Assembly: GCF_001653235.2 (NCBI RefSeq)
Contig: NC_035794.1
Span: forward strand, 3,038,001 to 3,102,000
Length of the DNA: 64,000 nucleotides
Direction of reading: 5' to 3'
Origin: Pochonia chlamydosporia 170
Lineage: Eukaryota > Ascomycota > Sordariomycetes > Hypocreales > Clavicipitaceae
The translations under genes were made by a program, and so were the position numbers. The notes below the pieces were generated by a model. That model did not search any database, was not told where the DNA came from, and saw nothing but the letters and a program-made list of their open reading frames with translations. This document shows positions 1 through 14,427 of this stretch, piece by piece. How positions within the stretch are numbered: position 1 is the first letter of the stretch; every line of letters begins with the position of its first letter.

Positions 1-3000
1 TTTATGTCGGTCGACCAACGGGCAAGTGATCTCTTGATCTGAATCACAAACCGGGAAACAGCTAGTGAGACGCCACCTATTATGAAGAGAGGACTTGTCG
101 GAATATCTTCCATTGAAGATACCGGATCACGCAAGATGTCCACCCGCTCGTCAGTTGCCTGTGACATGAACACAGAACAACTATGCTTAGAAAGATCAGG
201 ATGGTCGTAAGAGATGAAGTCAACTCCAGAGAAGCCATGAAGCCGAAGAATATCGTCCCATCTCTTAGGACTGATGCCGGGGCCGGTTGTTCTGCCTTCG
301 TCTACACCTAGCCACCATCCTTCTAAAGCCCCCATGAGACCTGTCTCGCGGAGCATGTTGCCCGTGACTTCGATAGCGATCAGATATCCCCCAGGTCGTA
401 ATAAAGCTCTCGTATTCCGGATTGTCTCGGACAAATTCCGCGTCGCATGAAGCACATTCGCAGCTATGACAATGTCGTAGCCTCCTTCTTCAAAACCTTG
501 CACGCCCGGAGGTTTCTCGACATTGAAGACTTTGAAACTTACTTTTCCAGACTGTCCTTCAGGAATGTTCTGCTCCAGAGTGCTGAAGAAACTACCCGAA
601 ATGTCTGTACATGTGTACGACGAATATGCATCGCCAATGGCGTCGAACACGCCGACTGTCGTTGCCCCAGTTCCGGCACCTATCTCAAGAATATGGGCTC
701 TGGGGAACTTGTGGCTCACTTGGCGCATTATGTCGGCAGTGTACGCATTGCAAGTTGCGAACCTGTGGTCCTCTCTGTAGAGTCTGCCGAGAAGATTGTT
801 CTCCAGCATGTGTTCCATCATTTCTGACTCTCCTCTCACAACTGACGGTAGGTTCTGGCCAACAGTTGTCAACATGGCAACAGCTATGTCATCGGTGTGA
901 CTATTACAAAGGCGATCTATGCTCTCTTGGTTGTCCAACAGCCATTCCGTTTCATAAGAGGCATATAAGTCATCGTAATCATTGGCTAAAGTGGTATTGA
1001 TGTATCGTAGGAGCTCTTGGTGGTGCCACTTCATCTGGGTTGGCGGTTCCCTGTCTATGTCCCGGGCGAGCTCTCTCATATAGAATAAGGTGACGCGCTC
1101 GTATAAATCGCTCATCTTTACCGTCTCTTCCAAACTGGGGGGGATAGCTTTTGACATAGTCAGGCTGTAGGGATTTCCGATGCCCCAAATGGTTTTGGCA
1201 AAAAGGTTTCGGTCATCGGAAGGTTCCGGTTCCCCAACTGATTTCAGCATCAGTCCCTCAATATGTATAGAGCTTGTGACTGATTTGAATGCAATAGTGA
1301 TGTCTGTTTCTACAAAACTCCTGTCGTGATTCCCCATTGTGGCCTCGATGTCCACACTAGTAGCGGTCGGGGTATTTTGAGTGGTGAGGCTGAGGTCAAC
1401 AACGGCCCGTCGAATACTAACTGGGAGGTATGTGCTGCCCATAGATTTCTCTGCTGTGGAAATAAATGTTGCAAGGCCAGCCTGAAACCCGGTATCCAGT
1501 ACAGCAGGATGCAGCATGTATTCATCTTCAAGATCCACGACTTCCCAGGAGGCCGTTGCCCTAGCCAAGCCCCACGATCTCTTGAGAGACGTCAGTTTCT
1601 TAAATGACCCTTCATAGACAATTCCCAGGCCAGCAACGGCGCGGTAGAACCTATCTACGCCCAGAGGAGTGAGCTCTGATTTGGATATGAAGTTTGGCGG
1701 CAGGTCCGAAGCTTCCCTCTCACCCATATGGATAAGAAGACCTGCTTCACATGTTGTTTCCAAAACACGATTGTCAGAACTACCATGACAAATAAACTCA
1801 GCCTTGATCACCGAGTTATTCGATATAGTATCAGGAGCAGCTTTGCTACGAATTGTGAAAAGTAGCTCAGCGCCATCATATTCATCGACGACGAGTGGTT
1901 TGAGAATATTCATGTTCTGAACCTCCACCAATCTTACTTGCCGATCACCAACAAATATTTTTGTGGCTTCTATAGCCGCGGTAACGTAAGCAGCTGCGGG
2001 AAATAGAACCTGACCCTGGAACGTATGCTGCTTCAGCCAAGGCATCTCGTCGAGACGGAGTATTCTTCGCCATGTCTTCTCACAGGGGAAGTTATCACGC
2101 AGGTGTCCCAAGAGACTATGCCACTCTTGACCAACATGGCCCAAGCGATAGTCTCGCGAAACACGAGACTCCCGCCAGTGAATCTGGTCGTGATCCCAGC
2201 AGTAGGATGGCAGGCCTTTCACTATGCCTGGGCAAGTTTGCAAACCGAATGCCTTTCTCCAGCTAGCAAAGTCGACGGATTTGGGATTGGAACGCATCCA
2301 GAGCATGCCGAGCGTCTCCGATAAGGTTTCTATGTCGGATTGATTTCGCCGCAAGCAACTTGCATATGGTAAAGCTGTTGATGACATGGGCTTCAGAATT
2401 TGCGAAACCGGCCCTTTCAAAGCTGGATGTGGCCCAAGTTCGACAGCCATGGTGAAATGACTTGGGTCACTTTGTATTGCAACCTCAACGGCTCTAGAAA
2501 ACAAGACTGTCTGCACCATGTTGCTGACCCAGTATTGACCGTCAAGCCCATGCTCATGGGCATTTTCTGGGAGAATTTCGAATTCTGGATGCACAGAGGA
2601 TATCCATCTAGAGCCACCTTGTGCCTCCCCCGTTCGAATTTTGATGTTTAACTTTTTGAGGTGTGAGAGGTAGGGCCCGGCACAGGGAGTCATATGCTGC
2701 GAATGATAGGCTGTATCAACTCGAAGCCGTTTGAATTGGATTTGAGACTCTTTCAAATACTCTTCAATTTCTTCAATAGCGTCAAGATTTCCTGAGAAAG
2801 TCACGCTGCACGGGGCATTACTAGCTGCCACACCGACTCTGCCGTCATACCAAGCTTCATCACAGAGCTTGACGGCATCGGAGTAAGACATACTAGCGGC
2901 CAACATGGCCCCAACTTCTCCATCAGGGCCCGTAGCGAGCTTCGCAACGTATCCCCTATAATACGCAATGCCCATGGCGTCTCTGAGACCTAAGAGACCT

Positions 3001-5008
3001 GCTGCGTATGCGGCTGCAATTTCCCCTGAAGAGTGGCCAAGTACGGTGGAGAACTTGGCTCCAAGAGAGCTTAGCAGATCGACCTGGGCAATCTGAATTG
3101 CAGTACATAAAGGTTGGGATATTTCAGCTTCTGAAAGGCGTGATGAGGCTTCATCTGCCAGTAACTCCTGTTGGAGTGACCAGGAAGGCGGGTCAGGAAG
3201 AGTAGACAGGGCGTCTTCACATCTCTGGATTGAGTCGCGAAATGGTTTGCAATGCTCAATAAGTTCCTTGCCCATTTGAGCTGCTTGTGCTCCCTACGAC
3301 AGACATATTAGCTGCAACAGGCCGGTTACCCTCATAGCGTGCATTCACATAGACTTACCTGGCCGGTGAAAATACCCAACAATTGAGGAACATTCCCTGA
3401 GGGCACCTTGTGCAAAGATTTCGTGATAACACCAGTCTCACTGCTCTCATCGAATCCTGTCAGCTTCTCCAAAGCGCTTATAAGTTCTTGACAGTCTCTA
3501 ACGGCGGGTATTGCAATACGATATGAGAAAATGCTTCTTCTTGACTGCAACGTGTAGCTTAAAGCATCCAAATCCACAGAAGAATTTTGGCGAATATACT
3601 CCAGCATATGTTGTAGCATAGCGGACAACGATCGTTTGGTTCGCGATGAAAATACAAACGGACCTATGAGCCCCGGCCATTTGTTGTCGCCATCTGATAA
3701 ATCCGCTTGCCGCGGTTCATAGCTCTCGATGATAGCATGTGCGTTTGTTCCCCCAAACCCGAAGCTGTTAACACTTGCTCGCCGAGGTTGGTCTCCTGTT
3801 TCTGGCCACGGAATTGGTGAAATAGGCACCTCAAGGTTGGTGTAGAAGGGTTGGATCGTCGGGTTCAAAACGTTGAAATGAAGATTGGGTGGAATAAACT
3901 TGTGCTGAATTGCCAGGGACGCTTTAATAAAACCAGCCAAACCAGCACATCCCTCAAGGTGACCTATTACAGTCTTAACCGAGCCACAGTACAAAGACTG
4001 GCCATTCTTGAAGTTTCCCTCAGAAAAGAATGCGTCATGAATAGCCTGCGCTTCAATGGGATCCCCTGTCTGCGTTCCCGTACCGTGACACTCAAAGTAT
4101 TGACAACGATCTCTCAACGGATCCAGGCCGGCACTTTGGTACGTTTTCCTAATGAGTGATGTTTGTGCTTCTGGGCTGGGCATTGTAATTCCGGTTGTGT
4201 GGCCGTCAGAATTAACGCCCGTCCCTCGGATGATACATTCGATATGATCTCCATCTTCTATTGCCTTGCTGAGAGGTTTCAAGACAATAGCTGCACACCC
4301 TTCGCCTCGCGCATATCCATTGGCGTCTTTATCCCACATTCGAGACCGACAATCCGGTGAAAGCATGTGTAACGATGATTGTGTAATGAACCAGTGCGGG
4401 TCTAGCAGCAGATTTACTCCAGCAACTACGGCTTGAGCAGCCTCGCCGTTCCGTAGTCCCTGAACAGCCAAGTGCAAGGCAACTAGTGAGCTAGAGCATG
4501 CAGTATCAAGTGACATGGATGGGCCCTGCAAGTTGAACACGTAAGATATGCGGTTTGATAGAAATCCTCTTGACAAGCCTGTTGATGCGTGGCTGTCCAT
4601 TGTGTCAGGGTCCCGAGACTGGATCGTGTAGTAGTCATCTGTCATAGCACCGACGTATACAGCGGTTTGTGAGCCTTCAACAGCATGGAGCGGCCAGCCT
4701 GCCGCCTCAAAGGACTCGTAGACGGTTCCCAAGAGTATGCGTTGTTGCGGATCCATCCCGGCGGCCTCTTTCGGGTTCATTTTGAAGAAGGGTGCATCGA
4801 AACAGCGAACATCTTCATCTAACAGGTATGCTCGCTGATGTAAGTGTTTGCTAGTTTCGTTTGGAAAGTTGGCAAAATTAAGTCGGTCCCTGGGAATGTC
4901 GCGAACTACATCTTTGGGTTCTCGGAGAAGTTGCCATAGTTTAGATGGACTACTGGCAGATCCAGGGAACCGACACGCGGTGCCAACAACAGCGATTGGC
5001 TCATTCAT
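1..5008 (-). CDS. Reducing type I polyketide synthase, N-terminal part (runs off left edge)
   Basis: Iterative megasynthase that builds and partly reduces a polyketide chain in the cytosol. The start is the ATG at 5008, whose first residues (MNEPIAVVGTACRFPG) are the usual start of a ketosynthase domain. KS: active-site DTACSSS, HGTGT and GHLEG are present. A 65-bp intron (3294-3358) interrupts the acyltransferase motif FTGQ/GAQ and splicing restores it. AT: nucleophile motif GHSSGE near 3030. DH: QHTFQG...FPAAAY near 2010-2040, with the catalytic His. C-methyltransferase: ILEIGAGTGATT near 670-700. The frame stays open to base 1, so KR, ACP and any later domains lie outside. KS and linker wording (PSKLWQLLREP, DRCQYFE) resembles the clade that includes PKS-NRPS hybrids; this is from memory of the family, and the C-terminus cannot be seen. 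No broken catalytic residue was found in the visible part. Confidence 0.93.
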
Positions 5009-6716
5009 GCTGTGAATTTGAATGATCACTGATGCCAACGAGTGATGGTTGTTTGTACTTTCTTGGAGTGGCACAGTAAAGAGAGCGTAAAATGAGGTAT
5101 GTTGCAGGATAGTCTCAGCAAGCACACAAAGAAGAAATCAGGTTTAGGATCTTCATTAATTTAGATTCTTGTGCATAATTATGAAGGGCTTCAGAAAAGA
5201 AAATAATAAACCTGACGGCCACCACGCCAATGGCTGACAAGGTAATCACGGTCGCCAGCATATGACCATCTGCACTTGAACACTTGTCTATCAAGGTCAA
5301 GTGATCGCGGTCAAACGTTCTTATTTGAACTTACTCCAAGCCACTTTTGTCTTATGAACCACTTCTAGCAAGATGCATTTGTCAAATTGCAAGTGAAACA
5401 GTTGTCAGATCACCACCTAGACACTGCTCGCTTGATAAGAGACTGCAAAAAAGTCAAGCTCATGGTGTCCATGTTGTGTCGGTGAGGCGAAAGGATCCGG
5501 GACCCAGGACTTTACTGCGGTGTCTGAGACTTTCGACACTTGGATGTAGATGTTAGGTGGATGCCAGTGTTACTCTGTGGGACACCAAAGAAACGCAGTA
5601 ACCATTTACGACGGCAATTTTGCTGTATCAGGCCGTGATATAGGGCGTACAACTATCACACATCATCTGGGTATAGGTATAGATGAAGGATCTAGGGCTC
5701 AATTCCACTTAAGAGGGAGAAACATGTGTCTTAGGCGATACAGGCTTAGACAACAAGGATAGCATGACCGGACGATTGGGATATTTGGTACTCATCCCCG
5801 CCACTACCGCGTATCATCGGAGATAACGAGGTCCGCAAGTCGATCAAGAAGCTACCGTAGTGGGAAAGCCAAACATAATATATCTTCAGGCCTCGAGAGA
5901 TGGAGTCAGCCCAGCAAACGATCGACGTGGCTCAATCTCGGCGTCGCGCTACCCGAGTCTATGGCCGTCGTTGGAAGCTATGAGTCTCCCAATTTGGCGA
6001 AGCTCATTTGAATTATCCAGTAGCAAAGCGACACCTGGCCAAAATAGGCAAAGGCGATAACGCAAGACCAAAGTCTGCGCTGTTTGCTTTTTCCAAGCCC
6101 AGGCAACTGGATACATCGCCCGATGCCTCTTTTTCTACCACTGAGTCGGGACGGACTTTGAACATCTCAGACAAGATTTACTCCTCCATCATCTAGATTC
6201 CTCAATGAGGCTTAGGGATTTGTATTATGACATGAGATCCGGTCATGTGAGTACTCATTGCTGCAACGGCCAGAGCACATCAGCTGGATGAAGCAAGAAA
6301 CCAGTGAGTAAGACGCAATATATACATGTCTGACATGTGTAATGATCTTAATGCTCCACCTGCTGGGCTGGACCCTTGATGCAGTACTTCCGATTCTGCA
6401 CTCATTTCCACATGGTGCTTGAACTGGAACAGGCGTCTTTGGTCTTGGTGCTGGAACAAATCCGTCTCACATGAAGCCCAGATTCCTAGTAACATGGCTT
6501 TCTCGGGGCTGCCGTAAAAGCCTCTGGCTAAGCATCGTCCCACAGGACCCCTAAACGAGTCCTGTAATGCGAAGTTGAACACGAGGGCTGATTAATTCCC
6601 GCACAAACAAGCTTGACAACTCATCACTATCGACTCCCACGCCCCTTCCAGCACCCAATCGACAACTTTTATAACCGCCATTTCTCTCATATCAAGACAT
6701 GTGACCTCTCCGTTGC
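5009..6716. other. Intergenic: PKS upstream region
   Basis: About 1.7 kb between the PKS start and the 3' end of the thiolase gene; both genes lie on the minus strand. Only short open frames without recognisable motifs are present. It must contain the PKS promoter, but no specific operator could be identified by eye. Confidence 0.6.
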
Positions 6717-9137: not shown

Positions 9138-10895
9138 CTACCAGTTCTGAAATGAGCCACTCTCAGACGCTATCATTGCCTCTTTGTAGTCCCAGAAGTC
9201 TTGAGAATTATCACCGTTGGACTCAAGGTATTCTCTTTCGGACTCCTCCTTTACCAGCGCCTCCCATCGTCCCCTCCTGTTTGTCCGACAATGTGGCACA
9301 TCACACCACAGTACGTGTCGGTTGTCCTCAGTGAAGTGCATTTGTTGCCATTCCTTATCAAGAAGGCTCAGCCATCCGGGGCTAGTAGGCCTTTGAATAT
9401 GCCAGAGATGCCTACGTGAAAAAATGATTCGGTTCCAGTTGGAGAGCCACATGTATATGGAACCACAAAGTCTGCATTCGAGAACGACTTGCCGTTTACA
9501 TTCGCAGTCCTCAAAGCAATTGTAGATCGTATTTCCAACACCTCTTCTGAAGCAATCGCAGATTCCAGATCGAACAAATTTCCTGATCTCGTTATCTGGG
9601 GAGACGTGCGGGCAGAGCCTGTGGTTGTGCAACGCGCCTGCTTCGAGCAAACTGCGAAGCTTTTTGTGAATACTGTCCAAAGAAGGTCGGTATCGGTATC
9701 TCTGGCCAACTTCGAGCAAAGGTAGATCCCAACCGTATGCTACCTGGAATACAGGATTGAAGATCAGGATAGGACGTTGCCAGGTTCGGCGTCCGTAGAG
9801 TCGGGGGAACGGTGATCCAACTGAACCGATTCTCTCGTTGTACTTCCAATCAGGTTGATGTGCCCTGTCGGTGCAGGCGTCGCTATGCCCGAACAAGTGC
9901 GGATATCGGCCGGGTGGAACATAATGTTCTATATCTCGCCAGGTGGTGGGGGAGCATGAATTGTGATTGCAGAGGGTAACATGTCCAACTCGACCGATGC
10001 AGACACCGACCTGTTTAGTGTCGTGGTTGTCCTCAGGGGGGAACAGCGCGGCTGCGTGTAATCTCTTGCATCCGTGACAATATCGCAAGCTGCGTAGAGT
10101 TTCTAGCCGATCAGCGAGAGTCCCGCATTCCTCTGCCGCAAGACAAGGGGCACAGTACATCTCATGGTGCAAAGAATTGGCAATCATGTTCTTATCCGCG
10201 GCGCACAACAATTTCATGTTAAACATCTTGTGGATGCTGGATATTCCGACCTCTTGGTGAAACCCTTTAAAATCCTTCAAATCAAAAAGGTCCATGAATC
10301 TACCCGAAGTCTGGCGCAGGCAATACAAGGAGGGAGCTGACAAATGGCCCATTACTTGTAGCAAAAGTTCGTTGGGCATGGCCATGATAGAGACCCCAGG
10401 ACTCGCTGCTGGCGCGGTCACGAAAGAAGCCTCGGAACCTGCCGCTGGAATGTTCATGAGACAGACGTCGGAGCTCGCGGCTGGAGTGCTCTCCGTGCTC
10501 TCCGTGCTCTCCGTTGAAACTTCCCTAGCCTTGGCATCTGAACCCTTTGAATGGCAGTAGTCCTTCTCTTTTCGCTGTTTTCTCGCGCCCATATTCTCGA
10601 GGAACTTGTCGAAGAACTTTGCTATGGCCAACTGTAGCCAGCGGGAACGACTCTTGCCGGCGGGAGACTTGGTATAACTCGTGGTGGGTAGTAAGTCTGT
10701 AAGAACTTGAACTGGAGATGAACTGGCCCCAACCGGAGATCTAGTATGACCTGCGGCGGGTGGTGAGTCCTCAAGAACTTGAACAGGTGGTGCATTTGTT
10801 CCATATTGTTCAAAATCGGAGCTGAGGAGGCCGCTGAATTGGCCGCTGAAGTAGTCGAAGTGGTATACTTCTCTAGCCAGATATGGCGGTTTCAT
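9138..10895 (-). CDS. F-box protein, hypothetical
   Basis: Single-exon frame of 585 aa. The frame is open a little further upstream, but only from GTG, so the ATG at 10895 (MKPPYLAREV) is taken as the start. An F-box-like segment (MPNELLLQVMGHL...LYCLRQTSGRF) lies at about residues 173-205, which suggests a substrate adaptor of an SCF ubiquitin ligase. Before it is a low-complexity region with two imperfect copies of PVQVL-x-D-x2-P-x4-(H/Y)T-(R/K)SP and a run of Ser-Thr-Glu triplets. After it, many Cys and His occur in CxxC-like spacing (CAPC, CHGC, CxLCG), perhaps structural zinc sites. The C-terminal half matches no family I can name. Proteins of this layout are common and variable in filamentous ascomycetes. 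The substrate is unknown. Confidence 0.7.
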   Translation of the reverse strand: MKPPYLAREVYHFDYFSGQFSGLLSSDFEQYGTNAPPVQVLEDSPPAAGHTRSPVGASSSPVQVLTDLLPTTSYTKSPAGKSRSRWLQLAIAKFFDKFLENMGARKQRKEKDYCHSKGSDAKAREVSTESTESTESTPAASSDVCLMNIPAAGSEASFVTAPAASPGVSIMAMPNELLLQVMGHLSAPSLYCLRQTSGRFMDLFDLKDFKGFHQEVGISSIHKMFNMKLLCAADKNMIANSLHHEMYCAPCLAAEECGTLADRLETLRSLRYCHGCKRLHAAALFPPEDNHDTKQVGVCIGRVGHVTLCNHNSCSPTTWRDIEHYVPPGRYPHLFGHSDACTDRAHQPDWKYNERIGSVGSPFPRLYGRRTWQRPILIFNPVFQVAYGWDLPLLEVGQRYRYRPSLDSIHKKLRSLLEAGALHNHRLCPHVSPDNEIRKFVRSGICDCFRRGVGNTIYNCFEDCECKRQVVLECRLCGSIYMWLSNWNRIIFSRRHLWHIQRPTSPGWLSLLDKEWQQMHFTEDNRHVLWCDVPHCRTNRRGRWEALVKEESEREYLESNGDNSQDFWDYKEAMIASESGSFQNW

Positions 10896-11557
10896 TGGTG
10901 CAAGAGAGACCTGGCGAGTCACAGGTGCCCAGGTGATGTTTCCAGTGCTTAATTACAACGACAGAGACTAGGAGACCTGAGAAACCCAGTTTCTGGGGTA
11001 TACTGTACAACGTGAAGATGTGCTTGATGGGAAATTAGGCTCCAGGTTGAAAAGAGAACGAGACCAGAGTTTATGCTCAAGTTAAAGGGCAAGCTCAGCG
11101 ATAATGTTGCTCAGTCTGCATCAAGAACTGTCCCAGGGCGGCAGTGAGACTTGATATATAGCCACCAGGGGCTCATATTTAGGGTTTAGCCATGTAGTGC
11201 CGGTGTCTTGACAAGTGTGAACTTTATCCAAAGCTTTAGCGACTTAGGCAAAGGCTATTTCGGCATACTCGAAAGGGGAGAAGGTTAGGTTGTTGAATTG
11301 ACATCGTTTTATACCAGCTGACGGCGAGGCCAGCATGGTAAGGGGGCTGCTTTTGCTTCGCCAAAAAAGAAAAATGATTGAGATGGCTACTAGACCCGGA
11401 CAAGGTGCGCATAGATACCAGTTGACAAAGGTACATATGTAATGATGAAGCGCCTGACCTACAGACCCGTGGTACCGGGCCAGTCTGGAACTGTGACCTG
11501 TCCCAGACTGGGTGATGTCGAAACCTCCATGTCCCCATTGACGTGCGTTGGCGGCCG
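10896..11557. other. Intergenic: F-box gene upstream region
   Basis: About 660 bp between the F-box start and the 39-bp repeat block. Nothing coding is supported. Confidence 0.5.
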
Positions 11558-11676
11558 CGGGTGTTCTTTTGACGTGATTTGTCTCCCTCTTCAACACGGG
11601 TGTTCTTTTAACGTGGTTTGTCTCCCTATTCAACACGGGTGTTCTTTTAGCGTGATTTGTCTCCCTGTTCAACACG
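11558..11676. repeat. Tandem repeat, three copies of a 39-bp unit
   Basis: The unit beginning gggtgttctttt occurs three times with an exact period of 39 bp (the gtgttc core is at 11561, 11600 and 11639) and a few substitutions per copy. Because 39 is a multiple of three, one minus-strand frame reads a 13-residue repeat (VLNRETNHVKRTP and variants). It lies just 3' of the stop codon of the microexon gene and is flanked on both sides by gcggccgc. It could be 3' UTR, or part of an alternative C-terminus. Confidence 0.85.
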
Positions 11677-11694: not shown

Positions 11695-12814
11695 CTACTG
11701 TCCGCCTGGCTGGTTTGCTTGTTGTCGGAGATGCTCCCTCATCAAGCCGATCAGCCGCTCAATCAGGTTGTTCTGCCTGTTGACGAGGTCGAGCAATTCC
11801 TCCCTCTGGGCTTCCCGCTCTCGGGCCGCCGCCGACCGAGCATCGGCCTCATGCCCTGCCCAACGTATGTCAGCATCATTGTCATAATGGTGATGGACAT
11901 GTCTTTTCAATGGAACCTACGAAGCTTCTCCATCTCCAAGGCTGTCTAGTGTCAGAACTGTTGCAATGATCATGACCGCGTTTTTTACATACCGTGCCTC
12001 TGCCCCTCCTCCGCTAATTCGACGTTAGGATCATGATCTTCACATCACATCTATATTCGATGGGACGTACCGCGCCTTTCTTTCTCCCACCCTGTCTAAT
12101 GTCAGAAAAATTGCCACAATAATACCTGCGTATTTACCTACCAAGCCTTGCTCTCTCCCACTCTGTCTAATGTCAGAAAAATTGCCATAATAATAACCGC
12201 GTTTTGACGTACCGAGCCTTGCTCTCTCCCCATCTGTCGAATGTCAGAACTATTTCCATGATAATACCTGCGTTGTTACGTACCGCGCTTTTCTCTCTCC
12301 CACGCTGTCGAACGTCAGAACTATTGCCATAATAATAGCACTGTGCTTCTACGTACCGCGCCTCTCCTCCTCCTCCTCCTCTGTCTGAAGTTAGAGATCT
12401 ATTTACATCGGCGATTCATATGTCCATTCGATGGGACGTACCTCGCCTCTCTCTCTCCCAGACTGTATAATGTCAGAGCCATGGTCTTGATGATAATGCA
12501 TGTGTCCGATAGACGGACGGTATGTGGGACCTACCAAGCTTCCTCATCTCCTCCTCTGCTCATATTAGAACTTTCAGAACAGCTTCCATGAACACGGGTA
12601 AGAAAACCGGTAACCGTACCTTGCTTGGCGACTTCCTCCGCTTGGGAGAGTTAGCAAGCATATATCACTGATAATATCATGAACGATGTACGCTACCTCT
12701 CTTCGCAACGGCCCTTCTGTCCCCCCTCTAGGCGAACAAAATGCCTGCAATGACGCCGATTGCAGCTATCGCCGCAAACACAGTTTTGCTCGCGAAATCC
12801 TCCATCATCATCAT
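11695..12814 (-). CDS. Microexon-built charged-helix protein with N-terminal membrane anchor; in-frame TAG
   Basis: Not a family I recognise. An ATG cluster (12814-12805) begins a short peptide MEDFASK followed by an 18-residue hydrophobic segment ending FA. The frame then meets TAG at 12730-12728 and continues open to a donor after 12697. Ten microexons follow, all entered with two bases and left with one: 12640-12620, 12555-12535, 12462-12442, 12380-12357, 12304-12284, 12233-12213, 12162-12142, 12091-12071, 12013-11993 and 11941-11921. Nine are 21 nt and one is 24 nt. Each is flanked by a GT donor and an AG acceptor, and introns are 50-72 bp. Each adds a heptad such as WERERRE, WERARLG, WEKERRA or LEMEKLR. 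The last exon, 11855-11695, holds a leucine-rich coiled coil (EELLDLVNRQNNLIERLIGL) and the stop codon. Frame continuity across eleven introns supports a real gene. The TAG leaves open pseudogene, read-through, or splicing that removes it. Confidence 0.7.
12071..12356 (-). repeat. Tandemly duplicated exon+intron units, 71-bp period
   Basis: Exon starts at 12071, 12142, 12213 and 12284 are spaced exactly 71 bp apart (21-nt exon plus 50-nt intron); the next unit, to 12357, is 73 bp. The intron halves are near copies of each other: on the minus strand each starts GTACGT or GTAGGT, passes through a variant of ATTATTATGGCAAT and ends TTCTGACATTAGACAG or close to it. This is direct evidence that whole exon-intron units were duplicated in tandem. 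Confidence 0.9.
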
Positions 12815-12817
12815 CGC

Positions 12818-12930
12818 CACCATCGTCGTCGTTGTCGTTGTCGTCGTCGTCGTCGTCGTCGGGGTCGTCGTGGCGATGATGATGGTGGTGGTGGTGGTGG
12901 TGGTGGTGGTGGTGGTCATCGTCGTTGTCG
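12818..12930. repeat. Trinucleotide microsatellite (GTC/GTG)n
   Basis: About 110 bp of almost uninterrupted GTC then GTG triplets on the plus strand. On the minus strand it reads poly-Thr in the frame of the microexon gene and poly-Asp/His in a neighbouring frame. It sits directly before the ATG cluster of that gene, so the true start may move with repeat length. Confidence 0.9.
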
Positions 12931-14427
12931 AGGAGTCTGCTCGAGGTTACTGCTCTTGGACGCGCCTGTAAAGTCGATCCTTCCGCTGCCTGAAGCGAAG
13001 GAATCTCTTTCCCTCTTTTGCCTTTCTGTTCACTTTCCTCTCCCTTTCTGGCTCGTGCCATCTTGTTTTACAACACGGGTCAAGAGCCCAGACGTTTTTA
13101 AGGCATAACGACAGAGAAATCGTCTATCACTAGATTATCCCCTTCTTACTAGGTTATCCGTCCTTATGGTAGGGTCGCCACAGCAAGACGTTATAAGCTT
13201 TTATAAGACCATCCATCTTTTTGTCTTCTTCACTGTATGTAGTCTTTTTAGAATAGGGGGGATCCTAAAGCCGAATAGGTCTTCCCCTTCATCATGGTCA
13301 TTCAATTTAGCAGAATATTTCGCGGTGTCTTTCTTCCCTAATTCCTTCTCTCCTTCGTTCTTTCCTTTCTGTCTTTCTTCTTTCTTCTTTATTTCTTACA
13401 AGTTAAAGACAGCCCCACAGCCGCCGTCTCAAAACACCAGACTGCAGTTCCTCTCACCTCGATCAATTGATGTCCCCATCTCCTCCTACCGCTTCCAGTA
13501 TCCAATTATTTCCTTCAATCTGATGGACCGATTGTCCCACTTGACCTTTTCGGATAGTGCATTGTAGTCCAAAATACTTGAATGGAAAGATGTACTGTTA
13601 ACAGCAAAGTCAATCCAAGGAACCTTGACATTTGCGCGCTGTAGTTGTACGTACCCGTCTACCAGGGCAGTAAAGATCATTAAAACTTTACAAAGCAGGG
13701 TTATGCACCAAGAACCCTCGCTTTAAGCCATCAAAAATGGAATTAACATGAAAGTTTGCACATCGTTTTGCCCGTAGATTGACTCAGAGTCTCTCTTTAG
13801 GGAGTCGTCAAGAAAACTTGCACGAAAATTTAAACTCGTCAATCTGATGGCTGATACTTCTTATGCCTCCCTTTTTAGGTCTCTCTGTATACACACGCCC
13901 AAGCTGTTTGATATGCTACCTTGGATGCTTAAAGCATCAATTGATGTATCTTTTGATCAGAATTTAACAGTTTACTTACCTTTATTAGGGACAGAACATT
14001 GGAGCTGAGTGACTAAAATCACGGTTCTCGGTGCTTTCCAAACAAACAGAGAGGAAATATTAAAGTTTTGGGTTCTGGAAAACATACTCCGTTTCCCAAA
14101 GTCTGTAAGCTACCATGTTCAGATGTCTGGTATGAGAGACGACCGCTTCTCAAAGCGAATTTTTTGCCTCTGCACTTTAAAACCTTCCCGCACTTGGATA
14201 GCCTCTAAGCTATTAGCGCGAGCAAAAACCTAGTTGTTGCGGCCTGCCCCGGCCATTCAGAGGGCTTGCTACAGACCATCAAACTATATCCAGCTATCGG
14301 TGCATCCTTGAGTTTGCGTCAATACTTTAGTGTCTGGCCCTGTGCTTCTCAATTCTGTGCTGCTGTCCGTAATCGACGCAAGGTAGGACAAGTCTTCATC
14401 ATTCAACATACATCTTTTACGTTTTTG
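12931..14427. other. Intergenic, no gene seen
   Basis: About 1.5 kb. Short frames only. Pyrimidine-rich around 13320-13390 and AT-rich around 13700-14100. A 122-aa minus-strand frame (13061-12693) is dominated by the microsatellite and is not called. Confidence 0.5.

Follow-up and report, generated by a model that had tools for sequence, protein, structure and literature searches.

Among the described genes closest to the locus reported here, troponin T has very small alternatively spliced 5' exons, the bicycle genes of aphids encode proteins with paired cysteine-tyrosine-cysteine motifs, and Xlr2 comes from Trichoderma virens, which belongs to the same order as the source fungus. In human fast skeletal troponin T, alternative splicing is established for 5' exons 4-8, most of which fall into one phase class, and the heptad domain is coded by separate 3' exons (PMC2447309). 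The bicycle genes form a family averaging approximately 17 exons per gene; they have been implicated as plant-gall effectors and are hard to detect by sequence similarity (PMC9168663). Schistosome microexon genes (MEGs) combine exons of 3-81 bp with introns of up to 5 kb, and their products are secreted (PMC10526429). A functional microexon in Xlr2 was reported in 2024 as the first in a filamentous fungus, in a paper that also mentions earlier microexon predictions and tests in S. pombe (PMC11121469). No report of a fungal array of heptad-sized exons appeared among the papers listed in searches of the open-licence literature.

The locus analysed here lies in a 64,000-nucleotide stretch of DNA (hereafter the window) and shares some features with each of these systems. 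Like the bicycle genes, it has many small internal exons, nearly all of which begin at codon position 2 in the aphid family and all ten of which do so here; unlike that family, it is a single fungal gene in which one exon equals one heptad and the exon-intron units are visibly tandem (PMC9168663). As in the schistosome MEGs, a run of very short exons (21-24 nt) occurs within one gene, but the introns measure 50-72 nt compared to up to 5 kb (PMC10526429). A block of mostly one-phase exons in the gene of a heptad-repeat protein is also found in troponin T, whereas here each exon is itself one heptad within a tandem exon-intron repeat (PMC2447309). Both Xlr2 and the present locus belong to filamentous ascomycetes; however, Xlr2 has one switch microexon in a transcription factor rather than an array (PMC11121469). 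Judged from the sequence, the array probably belongs to a protein-coding gene that is specific to its lineage, in a clavicipitaceous fungus resembling Metarhizium, and splicing would read a 71-bp repeat as one heptad per copy.

Structure of the exon array

The array occupies positions 12640-11921 on the minus strand and comprises ten consecutive microexons, nine of 21 nt and one of 24 nt (Table 1). The introns after exons 1-10 are 50-72 nt long and have GT...AG borders in all ten cases, and all ten keep the GT, a CTRAY branch-like motif and the AG. The first base of every microexon (10 of 10) is codon position 2, so that a single phase is maintained throughout, and the array runs into a 161-nt last exon whose stop is TAG. 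The exon lengths, borders and common phase claimed in the first-pass annotation, which had been made from the same sequence, are thus all present. That annotation also held that the joined exons read through uninterrupted, and they do, with no stop in the 123 codons ahead of the final TAG, whereas 5 and 2 stops interrupt the two remaining sense frames. However, stops are likewise missing from two of the three antisense frames, and for this reason the open frame counts as weak evidence. The further statement that Trp or another fixed residue recurs every seven positions holds for Glu, which is constant at the second full codon in all ten microexons, but not for Trp, which occupies the first full codon of just four microexons (3, 5, 7 and 8). 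The heptad register slips once because exon 4 contributes eight residues.

Table 1. Positions of the exon array and adjoining features within the window
Feature	Position	Strand	Description
Candidate 5' coding block	12731..12814	-	MMMMEDFASKTVFAAIAAIGVIAGILFA; moderately hydrophobic, frame leading to exon 1
In-frame TAG	12728..12730	-	separates hydrophobic block from array
31-nt stretch (RGDRRAVAKR)	12697..12727	-	after TAG; GTAGCG donor at its end, phase matching exon 1
Putative intron 0	12641..12696	-	56 nt, GTAGCG...CTAAC...AAG
Microexon 1	12620..12640	-	21 nt, EEVAKQ (joined: EEVAKQE)
Microexon 2	12535..12555	-	21 nt, EEMRKL (joined: EEMRKLV); in-frame ATG inside
Microexon 3	12442..12462	-	21 nt, WERERR (joined: WERERRE)
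Microexon 4	12357..12380	-	24 nt, EEEEERR (joined: EEEEERRA)
Microexon 5	12284..12304	-	21 nt, WEREKR (joined: WEREKRD)
Microexon 6	12213..12233	-	21 nt, GERARL (joined: GERARLE)
Microexon 7	12142..12162	-	21 nt, WERARL (joined: WERARLG)
Microexon 8	12071..12091	-	21 nt, WEKERR (joined: WEKERRA)
Microexon 9	11993..12013	-	21 nt, EEGQRH (joined: EEGQRHA)
Microexon 10	11921..11941	-	21 nt, LEMEKL (joined: LEMEKLR)
Last exon	11695..11855	-	161 nt, Leu-rich C-terminus and stop
Introns 1-10 (stretch)	11856..12619	-	64, 72, 61, 52, 50, 50, 50, 57, 51, 65 nt
71-bp tandem repeat	12065..12363	.	Tandem Repeats Finder: 4.2 copies, 82% matches
H/D-rich ORF (MARARKGEE...)	12693-13061	-	122 codons, His and Asp runs, upstream; frame differs from array

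Splice-chain scan and genome survey

The window was scanned for chains of short exons, each 6-42 nt in length and a multiple of three, whose introns span 44-110 nt and combine a GTRNG donor with a CTRAY branch-like motif and an AG acceptor; these motifs were picked after the array exons had been read. The output of this generic scan was precisely the ten-exon chain, and the longest chain on the plus strand and in two reversed sequences was 1. When the locus was resampled 2000 times under a Markov model with exon length left free, the longest chain was 0 in 891 resamples, 1 in 1065, 2 in 42 and 3 in 2. The exon-chain structure is real and statistically extreme, and the preserved exon lengths and splice signals suggest that the array is most likely coding.

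The same scan was applied to 20 other stretches, all from contig 5 like the window (198,000 bases), where the longest chain was 3 compared to 2 in the reversed control; with exon length free, it was 3 in both real and reversed sequence. Isolated candidate exons were rarer in the real sequence (81) than in the reversed (147). The additional genes with runs of phase-matched 21-nt exons for which the earlier annotation had suggested searching did not appear in these stretches, where no chain exceeded 3. Other such genes may lie elsewhere, since the survey and the window together make up 0.6% of the genome. A suspected second array on contig 8 was read, and there is no array at that place.

The only chain of 3 in the surveyed real sequence lies within a gene read as V-ATPase subunit G (L013:3758-4300), whose joined reading, spliced by eye, matches the Pfam family V-ATPase_G (PF03179, 1.4e-31). 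This gene, which likewise codes for a charged-helix protein, needs a 9-nt exon, CCCGAGAAT, between short exons. Under the divisible-by-three rule the scan recovered 21 nt of the 34-nt exon that precedes the 9-nt one, and with exon length free it recovered all 34. Because the gene needs a 9-nt exon, the fungus appears able to splice exons that small, and subunit G serves as a positive control from the same genome.

Predicted protein

The 71-residue rod encoded by the microexons contains 24 Glu, 16 Arg and 5 Lys (45 of 71 residues). Its identity at a lag of seven residues is 0.375 against 0.178, a value equalled by none of 2000 shuffles, which agrees with the earlier claim that each microexon encodes about one heptad, exon 4 with its eight residues aside; however, duplication of a 21-nt exon yields such periodicity by itself. 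Opposite charges at i,i+3/4 form 44 pairs compared to 28.5 +/- 4.0 in 5000 shuffles (p 0.0002). For a helix with 3.5 residues per turn, the hydrophobic moment of the rod does not exceed that of shuffles (p 0.67), and a coiled coil within the rod was rejected. The composition of the rod fits a charged single alpha-helix (SAH) better than a coiled coil. There is no cysteine among the 123 joined residues, and the motif of the bicycle proteins is accordingly missing.

Both the dominance of E, K and R (45/71) and the opposite-charge i,i+3/4 pairs (44 vs 28.5 shuffled) are shared with SAH domains (PMC5812594). Changes of SAH length among human transcripts are described as rare, whereas the gene structure of the array would permit length to change one heptad at a time (PMC5812594). 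In addition, some Arg-rich model peptides aggregate, and in the rod Arg (16) exceeds Lys (5) (PMC5812594).

The first-pass annotation had the helix end in a Leu-rich coiled coil. The tail is indeed Leu-rich, and a 32-residue core chosen by the analyst is amphipathic (hydrophobic moment at 103 degrees 1.09 vs 0.56 shuffled, p 0.044), but the whole 52 residues are not (0.61 vs 0.39 shuffled, p 0.15).

Homologues and genomic surroundings

The joined reading was compared to 5.8 billion proteins and gave 1104 candidates, none at E <=1, while the last-exon ORF gave one candidate in the same collection and none at E <=10. These searches rely on gene prediction and on candidates of similar length; because gene prediction can miss such exons and the candidates are similar in length, the absence of homologues is weak evidence. 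As a control of the database, a neighbouring single-exon gene returned 543 relatives among 8000 candidates scored, of which 120 were listed, with many Hypocreales present; the closest named relative among the matches listed was from Metarhizium guizhouense (83%), and other relatives reached 96 and 88%. Neither the joined reading nor the H/D-rich ORF came close to the Pfam cut-off, solved structures gave no match at E <=1, and none of 94 pattern matches in viral contigs was a relative. Within the genome, the last exon, the hydrophobic block, the exon pattern (which covers only the Trp/Gly exon type) and the whole 1120 bases matched their own locus only.

Several other features surround the locus. 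An F-box protein ORF lies beside it at 9138-10922 (Pfam F-box-like, 4.3e-06), and two long minus-strand ORFs at 3-5125 resemble parts of a polyketide synthase. Directly past the stop of the array gene is a 39-bp tandem repeat (11558-11676; 3.1 copies, 92% matches), which would translate on the minus strand into a Lys-Arg-containing peptide repeat of 13 residues (LNRETNHVKRTPV) within a 143-codon ORF at 11244-11675. Triplet repeats form two more arrays just 5' of the exon array, at 12823-12916; their plus-strand units are TCG and TGG. Together with the 71-bp and 39-bp repeats, these make four tandem arrays in 1.4 kb.

The 5' end

The first-pass annotation presumably drew the start of the gene at MMMMEDFASK... 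(12814-12731); the in-frame TAG cuts this block off from the array. The hydrophobic block is the only obvious in-phase 5' coding block ahead of the array; its best 19-residue mean hydropathy is 2.17, which is not unusual, since 11 places in the six frames of the window score 2.5 or more. A splice route around the TAG was sought by eye among the GT and GC sites from 12814 to 12728, and no site had the right phase together with a usable consensus. In addition, the GTAGCG donor of putative intron 0 is further from the GTANGT form than the donors of the other array introns. The gene may start elsewhere, microexon 2 containing an ATG; alternatively, a 5' exon may have been overlooked, or the gene may recently have been inactivated in this strain.

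It is conceivable, though unlikely, that the locus is a recent relic, functional until lately, whose inactivation in this strain is marked by the TAG. The in-frame stop would be explained in this way, as would the break of frame 5' of the array, including the H/D-rich ORF beginning at 13061 in another frame, and the failure to find homologues among 5.8 billion proteins is in keeping with it. Neutral decay would probably have harmed the splice signals and the 123 downstream codons, which are intact, but an inactivation that was recent would leave no such damage. We regard as less probable still a shorter protein that starts at the ATG of microexon 2, with everything upstream untranslated, giving a soluble helix without a membrane anchor. 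That ATG is in frame and the TAG would be bypassed; however, exon 1 is also 21 nt long, in phase and helix-coding, none of which an untranslated exon need be, and translation seldom starts inside a microexon. A coding gene whose splicing joins the whole array is the reading that we carry forward.

Origin of the repeat units

The 71-bp repeat unit corresponds to a 21-nt exon plus a 50-nt intron and involves about four units of the array; across the array there are shorter repeat families of up to seven copies, and exons and introns repeat together. The single phase, the single length and the lag-7 periodicity are partly explained by this duplication of exon-intron units. Compared over their full length, the interiors of introns 1, 2 and 10 agree with the other introns at 47-60%, no more than shuffled sequences do (mean 53%, 95th percentile 61%); the exons beside these diverged introns are still 21 nt long and in phase, with intact signals. 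The divergence of introns 2 and 10 is not total, as short shared ends persist, and the 3' end of intron 2 resembles those of the core introns with two mismatches. Introns 3 and 8 have identical first 16 bases, a sequence otherwise absent from the genome without mismatch. The way in which sequence is shared among the units points to at least one earlier duplication of several units and to a younger round that produced the 71-bp units with exons 5-8.

In the youngest pair, identity is 85% between exons 6 and 7 and 87% between their intron interiors; amino-acid constraint therefore looks weak, the exons being no better kept than the introns. In a neutral simulation that starts from an ideal unit and treats copies as independent, the probability of finding all ten units still intact is 6e-4 for 5% divergence per copy and falls to 3e-7 for 10% and 2e-10 for 15%. 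Because of that independence, the youngest copies (6 and 7) weigh less than the simulation assumes. On these figures, neutral decay appears to fit the array poorly.

A non-coding minisatellite, in which a 71-bp tandem repeat merely carries splice-like motifs by chance, is very improbable. Part of the array is plain 71-bp repeat, with the 39-bp and triplet repeats on its flanks, and such an origin would account for the equal conservation of exons 6 and 7 and their introns and for the open antisense frames. However, the diverged units retain exon length, phase and signals, the neutral simulation also speaks against this reading, and the array continues in phase into an open last exon of 52 codons. 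Invasion of a once-continuous helix-coding exon by introner-like elements is extremely improbable, for although the spacing is regular, several array introns have ends in common and the intron 3'-end pattern shows a mild excess outside the array at two mismatches (23 places vs 13 in the reversed control), the 5'-end pattern shows none (13 vs 22), both 16-base patterns occur outside the array only with two mismatches, the single outside place that was read has no array, exons and introns repeat together, and a genome search with these patterns did not reveal near-identical introns dispersed in many genes.

Possible implications for repeat proteins

Under the favoured reading of the locus as a spliced coding gene, a 21-nt exon and its 50-70-nt intron would have been copied in tandem several times, and splicing would take approximately 50 nt out of each copy, reducing 71 bp to 21 nt, or one heptad. 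The product would be a 71-residue Glu/Arg/Lys helix which, taking 0.15 nm per residue as the helical rise, could measure about 11 nm if fully helical; the short Leu-rich tail behind it might mediate oligomerisation or the binding of a partner. We infer that the locus is transcribed and spliced, that the helix may serve as a rod or spacer (a ruler), and that its length may change through copy number.

The length variation of repeat proteins is normally restricted to DNA repeats with a unit divisible by three. The exon-intron units of the array are 71-93 nt long, and seven of the ten are not divisible by three; retention of a single intron produces a stop for eight of the ten introns and a frame shift for the other two. 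As in a coding minisatellite, there is a tandem DNA repeat within the gene, provided that the locus is a gene, but its 71-nt unit is not a multiple of three and only the spliced 21 nt is. Since the spliced exon is 21 nt, gain or loss of a 71-bp copy would change the protein by exactly seven residues, provided that splicing works. The earlier proposal that exons could be gained, lost or skipped without disturbing frame or register follows from this one-phase structure, with the exception of the 24-nt exon. We tentatively suggest, as a possibility less likely than not to hold in full, that the locus is a minisatellite buffered by splicing, in which a changeable 71-bp repeat is spliced into whole-heptad increments and strains or isoforms differ in rod length. 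Further genes of this kind may exist, as gene prediction may overlook them. If the splicing-buffered reading is true, splicing would lift the multiple-of-three limit and couple the repeat unit to the structural unit of the protein, the heptad.
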